64,000 nt of DNA from a virus. The stretch is taken from positions 124,001-188,000 of IMG/VR virus record IMGVR_UViG_3300030294_000005, one strand, 5' to 3'. Positions 2,885 through 17,265 of the stretch are shown in pieces; the stretch's first letter is position 1; the number at the start of each line of letters is the position of its first letter. Made by a program: the position numbers and the translations under genes. The notes under the pieces were generated by a model. The model was not told the origin of the DNA. It saw nothing but the letters and a program-made list of their open reading frames with translations, and did not search any database.

Positions 2885-3556
2885 CTATATATTTCTAACT
2901 TGATTATTTAATGAGGACCAGTTTATTATTTTTTCACGTAAATCTAATAAATTAGAATCAATAGATTTACCTTCGTTTTCAATAGCTCTTTTTATATAGA
3001 ATAATATTTTGAAAGCTATATCTTGAGATATACCAGTATTATATTTCTCTAAAAATTTATACCAATTACCAAAACACATTGAAGGACTTATATAAAATTC
3101 TTCAGTATTATGTTCTAATTGATGTGCTGTTAGTGATAACATCACTAATGCAATCATATTTTTTCCATGTTCCTGTTTAAGTAATTGTACTAAATCAAAT
3201 GTAGATATATACCCTTTGGTATTTAATACATGCTCTGTTATTATTATTGCTACATCATAAATTGTTAATATACAATGATGCATTTCTATAGATGCCATTT
3301 CAGCAGTTATATTACCATTGAATTGACAATGATCCAATCCTAAACCCATTAAATATCCTTTATAGTGTTTATATCTTTTAGATTTTCTAAATCTAGAAAC
3401 GGCACTATCTAAGAATTTTTTATAAGTCTCTATATCTAATAATGTTTCTTTAGTTTGATAAAATGATATTTCATAAGGACTATTAGGACTTGTTATAGTG
3501 GGGTTAAAAAATTGATTATATATTTCTATATCAGGAAATTTATTATAATCACTCAC
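2885..3556 (-). CDS. Conserved phage protein with MHH motif, unknown function
   Basis: A 223-residue soluble protein starting at GTG, with GGAGGTG 12 bases upstream. The central part contains GLGLDHCQFNG and IEMHHCILTIYDV, a run of Asp, His and Cys residues that could bind a metal as in HNH-type folds, but the full nuclease pattern cannot be confirmed by eye. The rest is helical (SLTAHQLEHN, SPSMCFGNWYKFL). A late-type promoter motif lies upstream. Function not assigned. Confidence 0.7.
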   Translation of the reverse strand: MSDYNKFPDIEIYNQFFNPTITSPNSPYEISFYQTKETLLDIETYKKFLDSAVSRFRKSKRYKHYKGYLMGLGLDHCQFNGNITAEMASIEMHHCILTIYDVAIIITEHVLNTKGYISTFDLVQLLKQEHGKNMIALVMLSLTAHQLEHNTEEFYISPSMCFGNWYKFLEKYNTGISQDIAFKILFYIKRAIENEGKSIDSNLLDLREKIINWSSLNNQVRNI

Positions 3557-3583
3557 TATTGTGTCACCTCCATTGGTATTATA

Positions 3584-3596
3584 TTATATTAATGTT
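3584..3596 (-). promoter_or_regulatory. Putative late promoter (AACA-N6-TAA)
   Basis: The minus strand reads AACATTAATATAA, 28 bases upstream of the GTG start at 3556 and just before its GGAGGTG site. Confidence 0.5.
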
Positions 3597-3641
3597 AAAA
3601 CATATTGAGACCCTTATATATGGTAAAATATAAATTGATTA

Positions 3642-3649
3642 TATATTAT
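3642..3649 (+). promoter_or_regulatory. Putative early promoter (TATATTAT core)
   Basis: TATATTAT within TTGATTATATATTATACAT, 41 bases upstream of the PEBP-like gene. It shares the core and the downstream GAATAAA with the early-type elements at 12071, 14690, 15409 and 50817. Confidence 0.5.
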
Positions 3650-3689
3650 ACATATATATAGAATAAAAATATAAAAGGAGATGATTTAA

Positions 3690-4286
3690 ATGAAAATTGC
3701 ATCAGATGCATTTATGATAGATAAGAAATATTCTATGATAAATGATAATCTAAGTATTCCTATAAGTATAGAAGATATATCTAGCGATGCCAAATCTATT
3801 GTTGTACTTTTTCATGATTTAGATCTAAATTCTAATCAATGGGTACATTGGATTATGGTAGATATACCTGTAACTACTACTTGTATTAAAGAAGGCGTTT
3901 CTAAAACTATTAATATCCCAGATGGTAGTATTGAATTGAAAAACAGTTTTGGTAATATTGGTTATGATGGACCATGTCCACCAGAGAGTGATGATGCACA
4001 TGAGTACGAATTATCTATTTTTGTAATGAAAACTGAAAAATTAGATATGTCAAAACTATTAAACCTAGATACAATACTAACTTATACTTTATTTACTATG
4101 ATATTTTTATCTGATATTTTAAGTGAATACTCAATTTCATCATTTTTTAAAACTGATAAAACAATAACCAATCCTAAATTAGATAAATCTATATCTGATG
4201 TTATAATAACTTCAGATTCTACAGATCCATATGCTAGATCTAAGGAAACTGTAGTAGGTGGAATTCAATATTATGGAGGAAAGTAA
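3690..4286 (+). CDS. PEBP-like (YbhB/YbcL family) protein
   Basis: A 198-residue protein whose first 150 residues follow the phosphatidylethanolamine-binding protein pattern: LFHDLDLNSNQWVHWIMVDIP, a SFGNIGYDGPCPPESDDAHEY loop, and a C-terminal LSIFVM strand. These correspond to the conserved D-x-W-x-HW and GY-x-GP-x-PP-x-H-x-Y ligand-site blocks. Bacterial relatives bind anionic small molecules or phospho-groups and lack a settled function. The last 35 residues are an extra tail. The ribosome site AAGGAG precedes the ATG. Two small paralogous genes follow immediately and are probably cotranscribed from the early-type promoter. A PEBP protein in a phage is unusual. Confidence 0.8.
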   Translation: MKIASDAFMIDKKYSMINDNLSIPISIEDISSDAKSIVVLFHDLDLNSNQWVHWIMVDIPVTTTCIKEGVSKTINIPDGSIELKNSFGNIGYDGPCPPESDDAHEYELSIFVMKTEKLDMSKLLNLDTILTYTLFTMIFLSDILSEYSISSFFKTDKTITNPKLDKSISDVIITSDSTDPYARSKETVVGGIQYYGGK

Positions 4287-4571: not shown

Positions 4572-4883
4572 ATGAATAACGAAAAAGTTTTAAACAATGA
4601 ATTAAAAGAAAATACTAAAATAAGTGTTGATGAAGTAGAAAAGAAACGTGTAAAAACTGCAATTGAGGATATTGTAAAAAAGATATTACAAGAAAAAAAT
4701 TCTGATTTAACTAATGCAGTAGAGAATGTTTATCTATTAGGACAAGCTTTTATTATATCAGGTGTTTTAATGGAAGATCCAGAAAAAACAACTTTTGCTA
4801 AATTTCAAACTCAATTAAGACATATCATAAAAGAAAATGATAAACTAAAAGAATATGTTCATGAAGTTATGAAAAATATTTAA
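4572..4883 (+). CDS. Small helical protein, paralogue of previous gene
   Basis: A 103-residue protein with a charged N-terminal extension. Its body matches the upstream gene (YLLGQAFIISGVLM against YLIGQASVISTVLLM, then an EN-x-KLKEYV tail). It starts 6 bases after the upstream stop. The operon ends at a strong terminator directly behind it. Function unknown. Confidence 0.75.
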   Translation: MNNEKVLNNELKENTKISVDEVEKKRVKTAIEDIVKKILQEKNSDLTNAVENVYLLGQAFIISGVLMEDPEKTTFAKFQTQLRHIIKENDKLKEYVHEVMKNI

Positions 4884-4916
4884 GATAAGAGCTTTATTGC
4901 TCTTATCTTTTTTATA
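4884..4916 (+). terminator. Hairpin terminator
   Basis: GATAAGAGC and GCTCTTATC form a 9-bp stem with a 6-base loop and are followed by a T-run. It closes the PEBP unit. Confidence 0.85.
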
Positions 4917-4941
4917 TTATATTTTTAGGGGGATGGTTTAG

Positions 4942-5496
4942 ATGATAATAAAGTTAGATAAGATAGTTAAAGAGAAGACTTGGAATAAGGATATAGTTAT
5001 AGTACAATTTTATAATACAGAAACTCATGAATTTTCTGTAATGGATTTTATTACAGGTAAGAAATTCAAACATGCTACAGCATTAAATTGTGATCATTTA
5101 TCATTTGTAGAAGAGAAAGATTCTAATGATGATGTTATAAAATATTTAATAGATTTAGGTATTAAAAAATTAAGTAATATACCTTCAGAGTATGGTGAAT
5201 TAATTAATCCTACAAAAGATAAAATGAAATTAATCAGCTCTAATTTAAAAGAAATAAAGAATACCGAATTAGAATTAAGAGATGGAAGATATTATAATGA
5301 AAGTAATAAATTAATAATAAGTACTATATCATTGCTGTGTGATTGTTTAATATCAATTGAAGGTGGATGTAATTGGCCTAATATTAAAATGTTACAAGAC
5401 GAAGGATATAAAGTATATGCTGGTGAAAAAGATAGTTTTGGATGGTTAACTGGGTGCGTTGAAATTGATAAAGAGCATATTATCATATATGGATAG
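4942..5496 (+). CDS. Hypothetical protein
   Basis: A 184-residue soluble protein with no recognised motif. The N-terminal half is beta-rich and charged; the C-terminal half contains two Cys close together (LLCDCL) and IEGGCNWPN. A TAGGGGGATGG ribosome site precedes the ATG. The stop codon overlaps the ribosome site of the HAD gene, so the two are likely coupled. Confidence 0.7.
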   Translation: MIIKLDKIVKEKTWNKDIVIVQFYNTETHEFSVMDFITGKKFKHATALNCDHLSFVEEKDSNDDVIKYLIDLGIKKLSNIPSEYGELINPTKDKMKLISSNLKEIKNTELELRDGRYYNESNKLIISTISLLCDCLISIEGGCNWPNIKMLQDEGYKVYAGEKDSFGWLTGCVEIDKEHIIIYG

Positions 5497-9407: not shown

Positions 9408-10625
9408 ATGAAAAGAAATGCAAAAATAATATCTAAAAAAGAAGATTTAGATTTATTATTAAATATAAAAGAAGATGATATTACATTATCTTTTATAATG
9501 GATAATTTTGGAGAATTTGATGGAAAAAAAAGATTTGATTCTTATGATGAATTAGAAATTCCAAAAGGTATGTATGGTGCTGAAGGAATTAAAAATAAAA
9601 ATGTATTTACTACTACTGTAGGAATATGGATTTTTAATAAATATTTTATTGAAAAAGATTTATTTAATATATTTAAATATATTAATAAAACTGTTGGTAA
9701 GAAATTATTCAATGAAATAAATGAAAAACTTTCATATGCAGTAATGGAAGATGATATTGAGTTAGAAGTATTAAAAAGATATTTGATGAAGACTCAAAAG
9801 TTCATGCCATTTGTATCTATACTATCTCCAAGTTATACTTTAGCTATGCTGACTTGCACTAAAGATATAGAAAAGAAAAAGAAAGAGTTATTTAAGCTGT
9901 ATGATAAGGAAGTAAAATCTGGAGACCCATTAATTATAGATAAGATTCAAACAGAACTGTTAACCTATTCTAGAGAATTATTAAAAGATGATCCATCAAT
10001 GGATACATATGATTCAGGAGCTAGAGGATCGTTTGATAATAATTTTAAGAATTTATTTATAATGAAAGGCCTAGTAAAAGATCCAGATCCTAATAAAGGA
10101 TATAATGTAGCGACTTCTAGTTTTATGACTGGTATTAAAAAAGATGAATACCATATATATGCTAATTCATTAGCAGCTGGCCCATATGCTAGAGCTAAGA
10201 AAACAGAGGTAGGAGGATATCTAGAAAAATTATTTCTTTCAGCTTATCAACATATTGTATTAGATAAGGCAGGAAGTGATTGTGGTACAGCAAGATATTT
10301 AACTGTTGATTTTTCAGAAGAGAGAATACAAGATTATATGTATTCCTATATAGTAGAAGGAAAAGAATTAGTCGAGATCACTTCTAAAAATATGGATAAA
10401 TATAAAAATAAGATTGTAAAATTAAGATTTTTCTCTTTATGTGAAGGAAAGAATACATGTAATAAATGTGCTGGTAATTCATTTTATAGATTAGGTATTA
10501 AGAATGTAGGAATGACTGCACCACAGGTTCCATCACGTTTAAAAGTATTAAGTATGAAAGGGTTTCATGACTCTTCTGAAAAGTTCGTGGAGATGGACCC
10601 TTGCAAAGCGTTTAGTATTAAATAA
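9408..10625 (+). CDS. Multisubunit RNA polymerase beta-prime subunit, C-terminal half
   Basis: A 405-residue protein matching the second half of bacterial beta-prime. It contains the SGARGSFDNNFKNL block and an MKGLV stretch, then TSSFMTGIKKDEY, the LAAGPYARAKKTEVGGYLEK region of the trigger loop, and DCGT. It ends with a CEGKNTCNKCAG cluster and VPSRLKVLSMKGFHDSS, equivalent to the universal AAQSIGEP...TMRTFH segment. It must assemble with a separate beta-prime N-terminal half; a candidate is at 15748-17265. No promoter motif is visible between the terminator at 9363 and the AAGGAGG site, so it may depend on read-through from the late unit. Which of the two phage polymerases it belongs to cannot be decided here. 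Confidence 0.9.
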   Translation: MKRNAKIISKKEDLDLLLNIKEDDITLSFIMDNFGEFDGKKRFDSYDELEIPKGMYGAEGIKNKNVFTTTVGIWIFNKYFIEKDLFNIFKYINKTVGKKLFNEINEKLSYAVMEDDIELEVLKRYLMKTQKFMPFVSILSPSYTLAMLTCTKDIEKKKKELFKLYDKEVKSGDPLIIDKIQTELLTYSRELLKDDPSMDTYDSGARGSFDNNFKNLFIMKGLVKDPDPNKGYNVATSSFMTGIKKDEYHIYANSLAAGPYARAKKTEVGGYLEKLFLSAYQHIVLDKAGSDCGTARYLTVDFSEERIQDYMYSYIVEGKELVEITSKNMDKYKNKIVKLRFFSLCEGKNTCNKCAGNSFYRLGIKNVGMTAPQVPSRLKVLSMKGFHDSSEKFVEMDPCKAFSIK

Positions 10626-11658: not shown

Positions 11659-12018
11659 ATGAAACCTATAATGCAAAAGAATATGCATAAACCAGAAGAT
11701 GGTATAATAGGAGATTGTTATAGAGCTTGTATATGTTCATTACTAGAAATAGATGACGTTGATATTCCTAATTTTGTAGAAGATAAGAACTATCCTCTTA
11801 ATGTAGTTGAGTTTCTTAGAACTAAAGGATTTAGAATGGGTAATAGTATAGAGGAACCAAAAGATATGGAATACTATATGGTTTTTGGAATGAGTCCAAG
11901 AGGATTTAGGCATTCAGTAATTTATAGTAAAGGTAAATTAGTTCACGATCCTAATCCTGAAGGTGGAGGAGTTATTCCAGATTTATATGTATGGTTATAT
12001 CCAAGAGAATGTGACTAA
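11659..12018 (+). CDS. Papain/C39-like cysteine peptidase-fold protein
   Basis: A 119-residue protein with the order GDCYRACICSLLEI (candidate catalytic Cys near residue 20), an RGFRHSVIYSKG block (His near residue 91) and VHDPNPEGGG (Asp near residue 101). This Cys-His-Asp layout is that of small peptidase-C39/papain-like domains common in phages and mobile elements; true protease activity has rarely been shown for them. No signal peptide, so it would act inside the cell. AGGAGG precedes the ATG and a strong terminator follows. Confidence 0.7.
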   Translation: MKPIMQKNMHKPEDGIIGDCYRACICSLLEIDDVDIPNFVEDKNYPLNVVEFLRTKGFRMGNSIEEPKDMEYYMVFGMSPRGFRHSVIYSKGKLVHDPNPEGGGVIPDLYVWLYPRECD

Positions 12019-12030
12019 ATAAAATTATAT

Positions 12031-12058
12031 AATACAATAGCATTTTAGCTATTGTATT
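12031..12058 (+). terminator. Hairpin terminator
   Basis: AATACAATAGC and GCTATTGTATT make an 11-bp stem followed by ATTTTTTGG. Confidence 0.85.
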
Positions 12059-12070
12059 ATTTTTTGGTTA

Positions 12071-12078
12071 TATATTAT
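12071..12078 (+). promoter_or_regulatory. Putative early promoter (TATATTAT core)
   Basis: TATATTAT inside GGTTATATATTATAAATATG, followed by AATAATAAAA. It sits directly after a terminator and 38 bases upstream of a run of small genes (12116 onward). The extended sequence is nearly identical to that at 14690. Confidence 0.65.
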
Positions 12079-12115
12079 AAATATGAATAATAAAACAAAG
12101 GAAGGATGATATAAA

Positions 12116-12379
12116 ATGAAAGAAAGAATTGATAATATTATTAGTAACTCAGAAAAGGTGATAACTATACTAGCAAATATTAATTTAAATGATATGCCAG
12201 AAATAGTATCAGATAAATTAAAATTAGTGAATGTTAAAGTAACTGAAAGATTAAAATATTTAAATGATAATTATAATACCATCATATCTGATAAGTATGG
12301 TTATGATGAGTATCAGAGAATATTAGCCGAAGAAAAGTATATTAATGAATTGATACTAGTACTATCTGAATATAAATAA
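12116..12379 (+). CDS. Small helical protein
   Basis: An 87-residue, strongly charged, all-helical protein with likely coiled-coil character and no Cys. GGAAGGATGAT lies upstream of the ATG. It is the first gene of an early-type unit that includes the HTH/zinc protein. Function unknown. Confidence 0.65.
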   Translation: MKERIDNIISNSEKVITILANINLNDMPEIVSDKLKLVNVKVTERLKYLNDNYNTIISDKYGYDEYQRILAEEKYINELILVLSEYK

Positions 12380-12404
12380 TAAACTAAGGAAGGATGATAG
12401 AAAA

Positions 12405-12983
12405 ATGTCAAAAATTTATTTATGTTTAAAATGTATGAAAATCTATGATAATGAATCTTTAGCACCATCAAAATCACCATATTATAAAGTATGTCCAGAC
12501 TTATATTGTGATAATAGAGAGATGTTTGAAATAGATGAAAATATGATTCCTATAATAATAAAATTAAATGATAAAGGATTTAAAACCAAGTTCTGTTGTT
12601 CTGGGCATGTTTTCGAACCATTAGATATTTATGTAAAATTTGATGATAATTTAATCAATAATATTAATATGTATATAAGGCTAAACCTTATGCCTAAGTT
12701 ACCAGAGTTTTTCATGATAGAAGGTGATTCAATAAGATTAAAGAAACGAGGATTAGTTAATAATGAATTTAAATATTTTACTGTAGGAAAGTATAATGAA
12801 TATATGATTAAATCATTTGATGAAATTATTGACATTAGTGATACACAGGTATATATTAATAAAATTAATTACATGAATGACTGTATACAATCACTTTATA
12901 ATTGGATAGATGAAATATGGGATATATCTAAATATAAAGATATAGTTAATGAAAAGGGGTTTATAATATATGAAAAACTTTAG
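12405..12983 (+). CDS. Zinc-binding hypothetical protein with CCSGH motif
   Basis: A 192-residue protein. An N-terminal zinc-ribbon-like part (CLKCMKIY, then CPDLYC) is followed by the segment IPIIIKLNDKGFKTKFCCSGH, a pattern I know from uncharacterised bacterial and phage proteins. Its 3' end overlaps the HTH gene by 14 bases, so translation may be coupled. Role unknown. Confidence 0.7.
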   Translation: MSKIYLCLKCMKIYDNESLAPSKSPYYKVCPDLYCDNREMFEIDENMIPIIIKLNDKGFKTKFCCSGHVFEPLDIYVKFDDNLINNINMYIRLNLMPKLPEFFMIEGDSIRLKKRGLVNNEFKYFTVGKYNEYMIKSFDEIIDISDTQVYINKINYMNDCIQSLYNWIDEIWDISKYKDIVNEKGFIIYEKL

Positions 12984-13464
12984 ATTAAAAGAATTAAGAA
13001 TTAAGAATAAACTTACACAAGAAAAATTAGGAGAATTAGTAGGACTAACTAAGCAAGCTATATCAAGATTAGAAATGAATAAAAATAAATACACTGATAA
13101 TAATTTAATAAAAAAATTAGCAGTTGTTTTAAATTCAACACCTGAATACATATTAGGTCTTAGAGATAGTAGTATACAAGAAAATATGATTAATAACCCA
13201 CCTATATATAGTAGTAATAAATCATTTGATAGTAGATATGGATGTAAATGTGGTAATTTAATGGGACGTATTCATAGTGGTATTATATGCGAAAATTGTA
13301 ATACTGCAGTAAAATTTATTGAAGAAGAATATGATGATGATTTTTTAAATATAGTAATTCAATGTAAAATGAAATTAAATAAAACTGATATTAATATTAT
13401 AAAAGATATTATGAAAACATTTATAAAAAATAGAAAGGGGAATAATAAAAATGAAATTGAATAA
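12970..13464 (+). CDS. Xre-type HTH protein fused to an RNAP beta-prime-like zinc module
   Basis: A 164-residue protein in two parts. Residues 4-65 are a clear Xre/Cro helix-turn-helix (LRIKNKLTQEKLGELVGL, TKQAISRLE, then STPEYILGL). Residues 86-125 copy the zinc-binding domain of this phage's own RNAP beta-prime N-terminal half (15748-17265): RYGCKCG, MGRIHSGIICE, CNTAV, with Cys at 92, 94, 107 and 110. From the Arg of RYGC to the Val of CNTAV, 18 of 26 positions are identical to beta-prime residues 78-103, and both are followed by an acidic stretch. The last 40 residues are a basic helix. This suggests a DNA-binding regulator that docks to, or competes with, the phage polymerase. The interaction is inference. 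It lies in an early-type unit. Confidence 0.85.
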   Translation: MKNFRLKELRIKNKLTQEKLGELVGLTKQAISRLEMNKNKYTDNNLIKKLAVVLNSTPEYILGLRDSSIQENMINNPPIYSSNKSFDSRYGCKCGNLMGRIHSGIICENCNTAVKFIEEEYDDDFLNIVIQCKMKLNKTDINIIKDIMKTFIKNRKGNNKNEIE

Positions 13465-14182
13465 GCAATTTTTTAAAAATATACTATTTAAATTTATTGA
13501 TAATTCAAAAATAGAAGATTCGTCTTCTTCAACAATACCAAATTCTAATAAAGAGTATTATGAAAATTTCAATGCATACTCTTCTTGTAATTGGCTCGAT
13601 TTTAAATCTATGATAAAAAAGTATGGATTTAAGAAAGGGCTATCTTATAAATTTATAAATATTTCTTACCATACAAAATATAAAGAAGAAGCTATTTTAT
13701 ATTATCATAAAGAAAAAGGTTTAATATTATGGGCAACATCATTCTTTGGAACTTCTTTAAATGGTGGAACTGTTTATGGCCAAGTGAAAATAAATGAAGA
13801 GAATGAATCAGATGTTGGCAAAGCTTTAGATTGCTCACATGATTCATTTGGATATTATGATAAAGAGACCCGAAGTTCTACATTAAAAGATGCAGTTTAT
13901 TTTGATATAGATGTTAGAGATGGAATGATATCTAAATTGAATATAATAGAATCCGTTGCTGATTTTCAAAGTATTTGGACAACGAAAAATAAAAGTATGA
14001 AGCCTTTTGTATATTTATCTGATTTTACTGAAAGGCAAAAAAATAAACATTTTAATTGTGCAGATTCAACAATAGATAAATTAAATAGATCATGTAAAGA
14101 GGTTAAAGATATAGTTGGAATTGAAGATTATATAGCTAGAGAAATTTATTTTAAGGAGAAGCATAATAATGAAGGATTTTAG
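13451..14182 (+). CDS. Hypothetical protein
   Basis: A 243-residue soluble protein. A Ser-rich N-terminus is followed by an alpha/beta region with ILWATSFFGTSLNGGTVYGQ and a C-terminal charged helix. It overlaps the HTH/zinc gene by 14 bases, with AAAGGGG as ribosome site, so it is translationally coupled to it. No family recognised; the coupling is the only clue to function. Confidence 0.7.
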   Translation: MKLNKQFFKNILFKFIDNSKIEDSSSSTIPNSNKEYYENFNAYSSCNWLDFKSMIKKYGFKKGLSYKFINISYHTKYKEEAILYYHKEKGLILWATSFFGTSLNGGTVYGQVKINEENESDVGKALDCSHDSFGYYDKETRSSTLKDAVYFDIDVRDGMISKLNIIESVADFQSIWTTKNKSMKPFVYLSDFTERQKNKHFNCADSTIDKLNRSCKEVKDIVGIEDYIAREIYFKEKHNNEGF

Positions 14183-14501
14183 AGAATTATTAGAAGCCGA
14201 TATAGAAGAACAAAAATATAGACTATATAAATCTGTACGAATTGGTAAATTCGATATATCTATTCAGGGTAGTGAGAAACATTTCTGTACACCAAGACTG
14301 ACAACTAATCTTTATGAATATTCTAAAATGGAAATAGCAATATGTGAAAATGGTAAATGGATTAGTATATTAAATGATAAACGATTTAATGATTTTAATA
14401 TAAAGATAAAATGGGACGAAAGTGATCGACCTATAGCTGAATATGTTGATATCTCAGCAATACAAGCATTGTGTGATTATATTGAAAAAAATCTAATATA
14501 A
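14169..14501 (+). CDS. Hypothetical protein
   Basis: A 110-residue soluble protein overlapping the previous gene by 14 bases, with TAAGGAG upstream. It contains FCTPRLTTNLYEYSKMEIAI and a terminal helix; no recognised motif. Part of the same run of overlapping small early genes. Confidence 0.65.
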   Translation: MKDFRELLEADIEEQKYRLYKSVRIGKFDISIQGSEKHFCTPRLTTNLYEYSKMEIAICENGKWISILNDKRFNDFNIKIKWDESDRPIAEYVDISAIQALCDYIEKNLI

Positions 14502-14516
14502 TAAAAAGGAGACAAT

Positions 14517-14681
14517 ATGCTAAAATGTAGATGGTGTGGAAAAGAAATAACGGAAGAGCAAAGTAAAGAATTTGAAGGAACATGTGGTCCTACCCATATG
14601 GAATCAATATGGCGTATTCAAGAAGTAGATAGGATGTTTGCTGTTATGAAAGAAGATAGAGAAAAAGTTAAAGTTATTTAA
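14517..14681 (+). CDS. Small zinc-finger protein
   Basis: A 54-residue protein starting MLKCRWCGKEITEEQ. The CRWCG pair with a later CGPTH gives a four-ligand (C-x2-C...C-x3-H) zinc knuckle, followed by a helical tail. AAAAGGAG lies just upstream of the ATG. The stop codon runs into the next early-type promoter. Confidence 0.7.
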   Translation: MLKCRWCGKEITEEQSKEFEGTCGPTHMESIWRIQEVDRMFAVMKEDREKVKVI

Positions 14682-14689
14682 TTCAATTA

Positions 14690-14697
14690 TATATTAT
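14690..14697 (+). promoter_or_regulatory. Putative early promoter (TATATTAT core)
   Basis: TATATTAT within TTCAATTATATATTATAAAT, followed by ATGAATAAAG. This is the fullest form of the early-type motif, 74 bases upstream of the gene at 14771. A 7-bp hairpin (AATAAAG / CTTTATT, 14705-14729) follows in what would be the RNA leader. Confidence 0.65.
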
Positions 14698-14770
14698 AAA
14701 TATGAATAAAGTTAGTAGTTATCTTTATTTATAAAAAAATATAAAACTATATACAAAGGAGATTATTAAA

Positions 14771-15079
14771 ATGATCAAAAATTTTAACAAATTCATAGGA
14801 CACGTTTCTGAGATAAACGATAATGAGGCAATGGGTATTATAGATGGTATATACCATGGCATTGTAAATTATTATAATAAAGATACAAATAAAGCTAGGA
14901 ACATAGAATTGATTACTGATACTGTTGATTTCAGAGATTTAGTTTATGTTAAATCTATTGACTTAAGTAATCCAGTATCTATATTTACAAATATAGGTGA
15001 AAGTGCAATTTATCTTTTAGAGAAATTTCCTAAATTAAAACGTCTTTGGAAAGTTGAATTGCATGACTATACTGCTTAA
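14771..15079 (+). CDS. Hypothetical protein
   Basis: A 102-residue soluble protein without recognised motif. It begins with a charged helix, has a beta-rich middle (AMGIIDGIYHGIVNYY) and ends in LWKVELHDYTA. AAAGGAG precedes the ATG. It follows an early-type promoter motif. Confidence 0.65.
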   Translation: MIKNFNKFIGHVSEINDNEAMGIIDGIYHGIVNYYNKDTNKARNIELITDTVDFRDLVYVKSIDLSNPVSIFTNIGESAIYLLEKFPKLKRLWKVELHDYTA

Positions 15080-15101
15080 TATTTAAAAGGAGATATATGA
15101 T

Positions 15102-15290
15102 ATGCAAGGTAGATTTAAGAAAAATCATATTATAATAGGAGATAATCAAGTATTAAAAATTCCTAGTAATGTAGATATAGAAATAATAGAAGTTCAAAAT
15201 CATCCTGAATTTGGAAGAAGATATAAAATTCTAGGATGCAAAGGATGGATTAAACATGAATGCTTTGAATATGTGATTGGTTATATTTAA
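15102..15290 (+). CDS. Small basic beta-rich protein
   Basis: A 62-residue protein with alternating hydrophobic strands and basic residues (MQGRFKKNHIIIGDN...FGRRYKILGCKGWIKHECFEYV), possibly an SH3- or OB-like nucleic-acid binder; that is only a guess from composition. AAAGGAGATAT lies upstream. A strong terminator follows. Confidence 0.65.
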   Translation: MQGRFKKNHIIIGDNQVLKIPSNVDIEIIEVQNHPEFGRRYKILGCKGWIKHECFEYVIGYI

Positions 15291-15293
15291 TTT

Positions 15294-15325
15294 AATAATA
15301 CTTGCAAATTTATGCAAGTATTATT
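15294..15325 (+). terminator. Hairpin terminator
   Basis: AATAATACTTGCA pairs with TGCAAGTATTATT (13 bp) followed by a T-run. A second hairpin (AGATACATA / TATGTATCT, 15369-15390) without T-run lies between it and the next promoter. Confidence 0.85.
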
Positions 15326-15408
15326 TTTTTTAATAAAATACATTAGATATAACAAATATATAACTAAGAGATACATATTGCTATGTATCTTAATATAGTT
15401 TTAAATTA

Positions 15409-15416
15409 TATATTAT
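15409..15416 (+). promoter_or_regulatory. Putative early promoter (TATATTAT core)
   Basis: TATATTAT within AAATTATATATTATAGATAT, followed by GATTAAAT. It lies 37 bases upstream of 15453 and heads the unit that carries the RNAP beta-prime N-terminal gene. Confidence 0.65.
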
Positions 15417-15452
15417 AGATATGATTAAATTATGAAAGGCGGATAAAATATT

Positions 15453-15719
15453 ATGGAAAAAAAGAAAAAAGTTATTAGTTTTATTGCAAAAAATAATGAG
15501 TACATTACTGTAGGTGAATTAAAACAGCACTTAGATGATTTCGACGATCTATTACCTATAACTGTATTTAATAAAGATGGAGAAATTGAATCATTAACTA
15601 ATGGTAATATATATAAATATAATCTAAATAAAGGATTAATAGATCCATCAGATCCTCAATATGATAATTATAAAGAATCAGATGGGTTTGATAAAACTTT
15701 ATTATTATATCCAATGTAA
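15453..15719 (+). CDS. Small acidic protein
   Basis: An 88-residue protein. After a Lys-rich start it contains TVGELKQHLDDFDDLLPITVFNKDGEIESL, a form common in short phage and prophage proteins of unknown role. AAAGGCGG precedes the ATG. It lies 28 bases upstream of the RNAP beta-prime gene and should be cotranscribed with it. Confidence 0.65.
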   Translation: MEKKKKVISFIAKNNEYITVGELKQHLDDFDDLLPITVFNKDGEIESLTNGNIYKYNLNKGLIDPSDPQYDNYKESDGFDKTLLLYPM

Positions 15720-15747
15720 TATATACTTAAAGAGGAGACGAATGTAA

Positions 15748-17265
15748 ATGGGAGAATTGAATGTATCATACAGTTATCCATATAATGCAAATTATACTTA
15801 TAACGTATTATTAGAGAGGGTTAATTTAGATGAAGAAAGAGAAATGTCTATTTTAAAAGGTAGAGGTTTTGTTATAAGAAATTATCAAAGTGATATTAAG
15901 AAAGATATTAAAAATCAAGACGGAATATTTTCATCTAAATTCGGAGCTACATTGCAAGATGTAAATCCATTTGCAGATAGATATAAATGTCAATGTGGTC
16001 GTTTAACTGGACGTATTCATCATGGTATAATGTGCGAGATTTGTAATACTAAAGTAAGTTATGTTGATGATGACTTTGAATATTTCGGATGGATAGTATT
16101 GAAAGATCCATATTATATCATACATCCAAATCTATATAAAGCAATAGCTAATTTATTTGGTACTATGAATAAACAATCCGTATTAGATAGTATATTGGCT
16201 CCAAAAGATGAACGAGATCAGGATGGGTATATAGTAGAACAAGAGATTAATAAGAAAGAACCATTTGTTGGAATAGGAATACTTGCATTCAAAGAAAGAT
16301 TCGAAGAAATAATGAAATTCTATTTAAAGAAAACTCCAGGTAAGAAAGAGTATTATGAAAATATAATGAAGAATAAAGATAAAGTATTTACTCAATCTAT
16401 ACCAGTATATACAATACATTTAAGACCTTATAAAGTTTCTGGAGAGAAATTTGAATTCGAAGGAACAAATTCAACTTATAATATGATGTGTAAGTTAATG
16501 GCTTCTATAAATAATGATGAACTTAAAGTGTTTAGACAGAGGAAGTCAAAGAGCCAATTATTATATGATCTAAATGTAAAATTTCAAGATTTATATAAAG
16601 AATTAGAATTAATAATATCTGGTAAGAAAGGTTCTATACGTTCACTGTTTGGTGGTAGATATAATTTTACTTCCAGATGTGTTATAGTTCCAAATCAAAC
16701 ATTAAGAATTGATGAAGTAATAGCACCTTATGCCGCAATGGTTGAATTACTCCAACAAAGCATAATAAATATATTACAGAAATCATATAATATGAGTTAT
16801 AGTGATGCTTATAATATGTGGTTTATGTCACAGACAGAGAAAGATACTAGAATAGAAAAAATAATATTAAGTATTATTCATAATCATGATCGAGGAGTTC
16901 CTATATTACTTAATCGTAATCCTACAATAAATTATGGTTCAATAATGCAAATGTTTATAGTAGGGATTACAGATACTTATACATTAGGTATGCCCCTACA
17001 AGTATTACCTTTATTTTCTGCTGACTTTGATGGTGATGTTTTAAATATGTTGTATATTATAAATAAAACATTCTTAGAAGAGGCATTCAATAAATTAAAT
17101 CCAAGAAATGCTATGTATATTTCAAGAAATGATGGTAAATTTAATAATGCTGTTAATCATACAAAAGATCTTCTTATCAATGCTAATACATTCATAAATT
17201 TATCAAGAAAATATTATTCAAAAGAACAATTAGAATTGATAGAAAGGATAAAAGAAATGTTATAA
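15748..17265 (+). CDS. Multisubunit RNA polymerase beta-prime subunit, N-terminal half (catalytic)
   Basis: A 505-residue protein. Residues 78-105 form the beta-prime zinc-binding domain (CQCG at 81-84, CEIC at 96-99). Further on are GKKGSIRSLFGGRYNFTSRCVIVP (residues 292-315, cellular form [24 protein letters not shown]), LLNRNPTINYGSIM, and SADFDGD at 424-430. The last is the variant of the universal NADFDGD whose three Asp residues hold the catalytic magnesium. The chain ends soon after the active site, so the rest of beta-prime is encoded elsewhere (compare 9408-10625). Such splitting is known from phiKZ- and AR9-like phages. An early-type promoter lies upstream, which favours the non-virion polymerase; that assignment is inference. 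GAGGAG precedes the ATG. Confidence 0.95.
   Translation: MGELNVSYSYPYNANYTYNVLLERVNLDEEREMSILKGRGFVIRNYQSDIKKDIKNQDGIFSSKFGATLQDVNPFADRYKCQCGRLTGRIHHGIMCEICNTKVSYVDDDFEYFGWIVLKDPYYIIHPNLYKAIANLFGTMNKQSVLDSILAPKDERDQDGYIVEQEINKKEPFVGIGILAFKERFEEIMKFYLKKTPGKKEYYENIMKNKDKVFTQSIPVYTIHLRPYKVSGEKFEFEGTNSTYNMMCKLMASINNDELKVFRQRKSKSQLLYDLNVKFQDLYKELELIISGKKGSIRSLFGGRYNFTSRCVIVPNQTLRIDEVIAPYAAMVELLQQSIINILQKSYNMSYSDAYNMWFMSQTEKDTRIEKIILSIIHNHDRGVPILLNRNPTINYGSIMQMFIVGITDTYTLGMPLQVLPLFSADFDGDVLNMLYIINKTFLEEAFNKLNPRNAMYISRNDGKFNNAVNHTKDLLINANTFINLSRKYYSKEQLELIERIKEML

Follow-up and report, generated by a model that had tools for sequence, protein, structure and literature searches.

The open reading frame at 12970-13464, which we refer to as Xre-Zn, encodes a chimeric regulator. 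On the evidence of sequence comparison, the gene of a short Xre repressor, part of an early operon, acquired in its linker region 112 bp duplicated from the zinc-module segment of the beta' gene of the phage's own RNA polymerase (RNAP), 2.7 kb away. The gene fusion is real, well supported and unusual; it belongs to a known kind, that of Xre repressors bearing an additional zinc domain, and its origin is unusual. The window analyzed is a 64-kb stretch (G000:124001-188000) within a 236-kb viral record, and sequence similarities place the phage in a group with AR9, PBS1 and phiR1-37. Coordinates are those of the window unless stated otherwise, and the genes, domains, promoters and terminators of the Xre-Zn and beta' region lie on the plus strand; one dyad has no strand.

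Domain organization of Xre-Zn

Xre-Zn is 164 residues long, starts with ATG behind the ribosome-binding site AAAGGGG, and overlaps by 14 nt both the preceding operon gene (12405-12983, 192 aa) and the following one (13451-14182, 243 aa), so that it is probably translated within the operon. The Xre helix-turn-helix (HTH) recognized in the initial annotation is confirmed: Pfam HTH_3 matches residues 6-61 (12985-13152) with an E value of 4.8e-10 and 39.8 bits against a curated cut-off of 23, and by this domain Xre-Zn is a member of the Xre/Cro-CI repressor family. Foldseek matches to P22 c2, SinR and 434 Cro identify it as an ordinary Cro/CI-like HTH. It is followed by a linker that contains the zinc module (13223-13334, residues 86-121, with Cys 92, 94, 107 and 110), after which there is an acidic stretch, and by a C-terminal tail (13336-13443, residues 123-158) predicted by AlphaFold to form two helices (123-135 and 138-158). 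The tail aligns with that of module-free phage Xre repressors and corresponds to the C-terminal dimerization tail of the Xre/Cro-CI family; dimerization of Xre-Zn is predicted.

In the AlphaFold model the HTH (pLDDT about 84-97), the zinc unit (91-95 for residues 91-110) and the two tail helices (about 80-89) are confidently predicted, and the linker is flexible (about 60). The global pTM is low (0.46), and together with the confident parts this suggests that HTH, zinc unit and tail are separate units.

An Xre gene that overlaps the next gene downstream would suit an antitoxin whose toxin is the product of 13451-14182, under an MqsA-like logic, and there are weak matches to the HipB, MqsA and PezA families in the HTH part only. 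However, no toxin-family match was found for either neighbor in Pfam, NCBIfam or PADLOC, and the product of 13451-14182 has no family match. The MqsA/YgiT antitoxins do combine a zinc-binding domain and an Xre HTH in one regulator, as Xre-Zn does, but their zinc domain is N-terminal with CxxC pairs, their HTH is C-terminal and they have an MqsR partner. Xre-Zn differs from the MqsA family in domain order and Cys spacing, and its score of 17.9 bits, from the HTH only, falls below the cut-off of 30. An antitoxin role is highly improbable.

Insertion of the module into a repressor linker

The fusion of HTH and zinc segment described in the initial annotation stands, although not as an appended segment: by alignment, the module sits in the HTH-tail linker of a short Cro/CI-like Xre repressor whose C-terminal helical tail is retained. 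Cro/CI-like Xre repressors of Firmicutes phages, such as the regulators of phiCDIF1296T and Ruminococcus phage RG-TP1, can be aligned with Xre-Zn throughout, from the HTH over the linker to the helical tail at the C terminus, and lack the zinc module, whereas the Xre-Zn linker carries about 36 beta' residues. These repressors align on both sides of the module, through HTH, linker and a tail with a recurring LDxxDxxxI. A profile built from them matches residues 5-157 of Xre-Zn with 68 bits, and the score of its tail part is reached by 3 of 2000 shuffled sequences. When the module is removed in silico, the repressor matches run across the junction, that of phiCDIF1296T extending from residues 5-79 (5e-3) to 5-120 (7e-5). 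Proteins of PhiR34_1, phiCDKH02 and Photobacterium whose matches cover the zinc part carry annotations as plain CI, HTH and S24 repressor proteins.

One possible role for such an insertion is a structural one, in which a self-folding zinc ribbon lengthens or stiffens the HTH-tail linker, or aids dimerization or stability, of an ordinary early repressor, its polymerase origin being irrelevant. The linker that holds the module varies in length among related repressors, the HTH is an ordinary one, and Xre proteins with unrelated zinc domains exist (the MqsA family). Both ends of the module are adjacent strands in the secondary structure predicted by AlphaFold, such that insertion should be tolerated. 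A structural insert leaves the identity of the tip loop to that of the phage's own beta' unexplained, though recency alone could explain it. We regard this as a serious possibility, at somewhat less than even odds.

Origin of the zinc module in the phage's own beta' gene

The comparison with beta' reported in the initial annotation was recounted with the same result: residues 89-114 of Xre-Zn and 78-103 of beta' are identical at 18 of 26 positions (19/29 from F86 on), and the four Cys (C92, C94, C107 and C110; C81, C83, C96 and C99 in beta') have the common spacing C-x-C-x12-C-x2-C. All eight invariant columns of the module, these Cys and a core of Y, G, G and V, are retained. When the 236-kb record was searched with Xre-Zn, the significant matches were the protein itself and the beta' zinc segment alone (E 1.7e-11); the PHROG family of phage RNAP beta' (phrog_2987) matches residues 80-122 at 2.5e-4. 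The Pfam and PHROG searches found no RNAP sequence in the ORF beyond the zinc module, and it is thus a beta'-derived module rather than a polymerase subunit.

The relationship extends to the DNA. An unsupervised repeat search of 12000-16200, blind to the question, returned 13223-13334 and 15968-16079 as the longest direct repeat, 112 nt with 76% identity at a spacing of 2,745. The same codon is used at 17 of the 19 identical residues (p = 0.00066 under phage codon usage). Among these shared codons are a CGT, which accounts for 26 of 536 Arg codons, and a TGC, which accounts for 33 of 223 Cys codons. In a tree built from zinc segments, the Xre-Zn copy, on a long branch, groups with the phage's own beta', its nearest row, which has a branch length of zero; most forks in this tree are without support. 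Both sequences share GRIHxGIxCExCNT, where relatives mostly have SRIN, SRLY or GSIN and CP.C or CD.C, and the GRIHxGI tip is identical to that of the phage's own beta' at residues where relatives differ. Chance resemblance is ruled out by the own-genome match, the codon identity and the 112-nt repeat, and a bacterial host rpoC as the source by bacterial beta' matches of E about 0.2 or worse and the position of the phage's own beta' in the tree.

The structure prediction proposed as a check in the initial annotation gives the zinc segment as a separate, confident unit with beta'-like secondary structure, the secondary-structure strings of the zinc unit being nearly identical in Xre-Zn and beta'. 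The AlphaFold model of the whole beta' subunit is poor (pLDDT 44), and the comparison is therefore restricted to local secondary structure. The module resembles the beta' zinc-binding domain of multisubunit RNAPs (E. coli C70-C88; phiKZ gp55) in C-x-C-x12-C-x2-C, the GxxCxxC core and predicted secondary structure, but it is off any polymerase subunit and borne by a DNA-binding regulator. Together these comparisons identify it as a DNA-level duplicate of the phage's own beta' segment, complete and, by prediction, fold-competent.

Four conserved Cys in a predicted folded site could also make a zinc or redox sensor, in which metal loss alters the dimer and its operator affinity. However, no sensing residues have been added to the module, and the donor site in beta' is a structural zinc site and to our knowledge not a sensor. 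We consider a sensor very unlikely.

Distribution among related phages

Neither a second zinc copy nor a fusion was found in any of 17 related records (10 of them of 185 kb or more), each of which has the beta' zinc module once, and no unfused ortholog of Xre-Zn was found in the same 17. Xre-Zn is therefore a recent, single-lineage chimera, and this distribution makes it most likely that the HTH gene, like the fusion, is recent in this lineage. The comparison with relatives envisaged in the initial annotation is not a clean test, since the fusion is absent from them and the HTH proteins that they encode come from another Xre family. Searches of viral contigs, GTDB genomes, phage records and plasmids likewise returned no further example of the fusion; the matches are beta' genes or plain Xre/CI proteins.

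Several candidates were rejected. The HTH genes found in related phages are not orthologous to Xre-Zn; they fall in the different Xre family with the signature ISNIESG...SPTLRSLI. Of the possible second copies, those in Burkholderia phage FLC9 and Proteus phage 10 resemble RNAP pieces by eye, and the KP13-7 protein is an unrelated repeat protein. A small Xre family with ISNIESG-SSPTLRSLIKY-NA-G is common to the related jumbo phages (loci L021-L025), its likeness to Xre-Zn stopping at the HTH.

Pairwise estimates for the copy (29-33 codons) are dN about 0.27-0.32 and dS about 0.18-0.21, and the resulting dN/dS of about 1.3-1.8 is compatible with relaxed constraint. These values and the single lineage would suit an evolutionary remnant, a recent neutral fusion whose frame is still open and which will be lost. 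The frame and the ribosome-binding site are nevertheless intact, the gene is retained in a tight operon, and none of the roughly ten substitutions in the copy falls in one of the eight columns that are invariant in the family (p = 0.018 for ten random replacements). A remnant is accordingly unlikely.

Polymerase genes, promoters and the early operon

The module donor at 15748-17265 encodes the N-terminal beta' subunit of a non-virion type RNAP (phrog_2987, 5.9e-62; AR9 nvRNAP chains 7s00/7s01, about 1e-63), with the zinc module and repeat partner at 15968-16079. The C-terminal beta' subunit is encoded separately at 9408-10625 (phrog_2962, 2.1e-66), and another part of the genome encodes a homolog of the gp226-type promoter-specificity subunit, found via a relative (2e-89 and 3e-66). 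By these similarities, a split beta' related to AR9 nvRNAP and a gp226-type subunit, the donor polymerase is classed as an AR9-type non-virion RNAP. The interval between the two beta' genes is 5.1 kb of small early genes; in the relative L003 the two genes are close, with one 117-aa ORF between them. The initial annotation put Xre-Zn about 2.3 kb before the beta' gene, in agreement with the 2,284 bp that separate it from the beta' start.

The early promoter of AR9 is AAATATATATTAT-N6-G and is assigned to the virion RNAP (PMC5312081). Its counterpart here, TATATATTAT-N6-G, has 30 exact sites in the genome against one for a reversed-pattern control. The early-type promoter claimed for Xre-Zn agrees with this published consensus: it lies at 12069-12085 (TATATATTATAAATATG), directly behind an intrinsic terminator at 12029-12060. 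A second early promoter of the same pattern lies within the gene cluster at 14688-14704, another intrinsic terminator at 15294-15325 is 3' of the cluster, and a further TATATATTAT-N6-G match at 15407-15423 is 5' of the beta' gene. The promoters at 12069 and 15407 predict early co-expression of Xre-Zn and beta'.

A perfect dyad with 9-bp arms, AGATACATA-TTGC-TATGTATCT, is located at 15369-15390, 38 bp 5' of the beta' early promoter; it is unique in the genome, has no T-run and is not terminator-like. Xre-Zn would be expected to bind an operator and control transcription, and this dyad is a candidate operator only.

Possible role as a mimic of beta'

Our first choice, with a probability of roughly 0.4, is that Xre-Zn acts as a DNA-bound mimic of beta', the structural insert being almost as probable. 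Xre-Zn would be a regulator that binds operators as a dimer and is expressed early, alongside beta', through the virion RNAP, and the paired zinc modules of the dimer would act as the mimic. The usual contact of the polymerase zinc module, be it a different part of the polymerase or a phage factor located at the RNA exit or upstream face, would bind these modules, and DNA-bound Xre-Zn would recruit, block or titrate that partner. In favor of mimicry we count the self origin, the complete, fold-competent unit, the spared invariant columns, the retained GRIHxGI tip, an architecture common to module-free repressors, early timing matching that of beta', the loss of basic residues, and the contacts that phage regulators make with cellular beta' zinc modules. 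Against it are the occurrence in one genome only with no second fusion found in our searches, the dN/dS of about 1.3-1.8, and the lack of an identified operator.

Of the basic residues in the module, five in the phage's own beta' and three in the Xre-Zn copy, some have been lost while fold and tip are kept, and a protein contact therefore fits better than nucleic-acid binding. We read the module as kept for its fold and perhaps for such a protein contact, and it is plausible that Xre-Zn docks onto the polymerase or competes with it. The computed results nevertheless fit the roles proposed in the initial annotation (docking on the polymerase, replacement of or competition with its zinc module, and the marking of promoters) no better than a purely structural one. 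That a repressor controls a multisubunit RNAP through a decoy copy of that polymerase's zinc module, acquired by intragenomic duplication, is rather doubtful.

Transcription factors and polymerase subunits with a common zinc ribbon, as in Xre-Zn and beta', are known from TFIIS/TFS and RPB9/RPC11; that case is ancient and archaeal/eukaryotic, its ribbon is unrelated to that of Xre-Zn and there is no HTH. The initial annotation placed the beta' zinc domain at the upstream edge of the transcription bubble, but for cellular RNAP the RNA exit channel is the better location, where it is contacted by the 21Q protein (PMC6606751) and by HK022 putRNA (PMC9378689). The lambdoid Q proteins and putRNA are thus phage regulators that act at this module and channel by binding the module, whereas Xre-Zn bears a copy of it. 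The module is present in the phiKZ nvRNAP and absent from that of AR9, which lost it and kept polymerase function (PMC7618050), so that a zinc-module partner need not be essential, and this counts against mimicry.

If mimicry is true, it would be a new route for phage control over its own multisubunit RNAP and a handle on the role of the beta' zinc module in jumbo-phage polymerases, lost in AR9 and kept in phiKZ. Even if merely structural, Xre-Zn is a clean case of a polymerase domain recently recycled into a transcription regulator.

Other features of the polymerase genes

Interruptions occur in the N-terminal beta' genes of several relatives (L010, L046, L048 and L107), close to residues 303, 387 and 428, of which 428 falls at the NADFDGD catalytic site. 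In L107 one of them is a group I intron (58 bits). The gp226 homolog (L064, G000:C1:20500-28000; 3182-4117 and 4740-5258 therein) has an interruption of about 590 bp between the codons for the relative's residues 318 and 319, with no Rfam group I intron above threshold. AACA-N6-TA motifs that resemble the AR9 late promoter lie right before the ribosome-binding sites of several genes (8517, 27376, 29993, 31006 and others in the window), which suggests that the gp226-type polymerase here reads the AR9 late motif.
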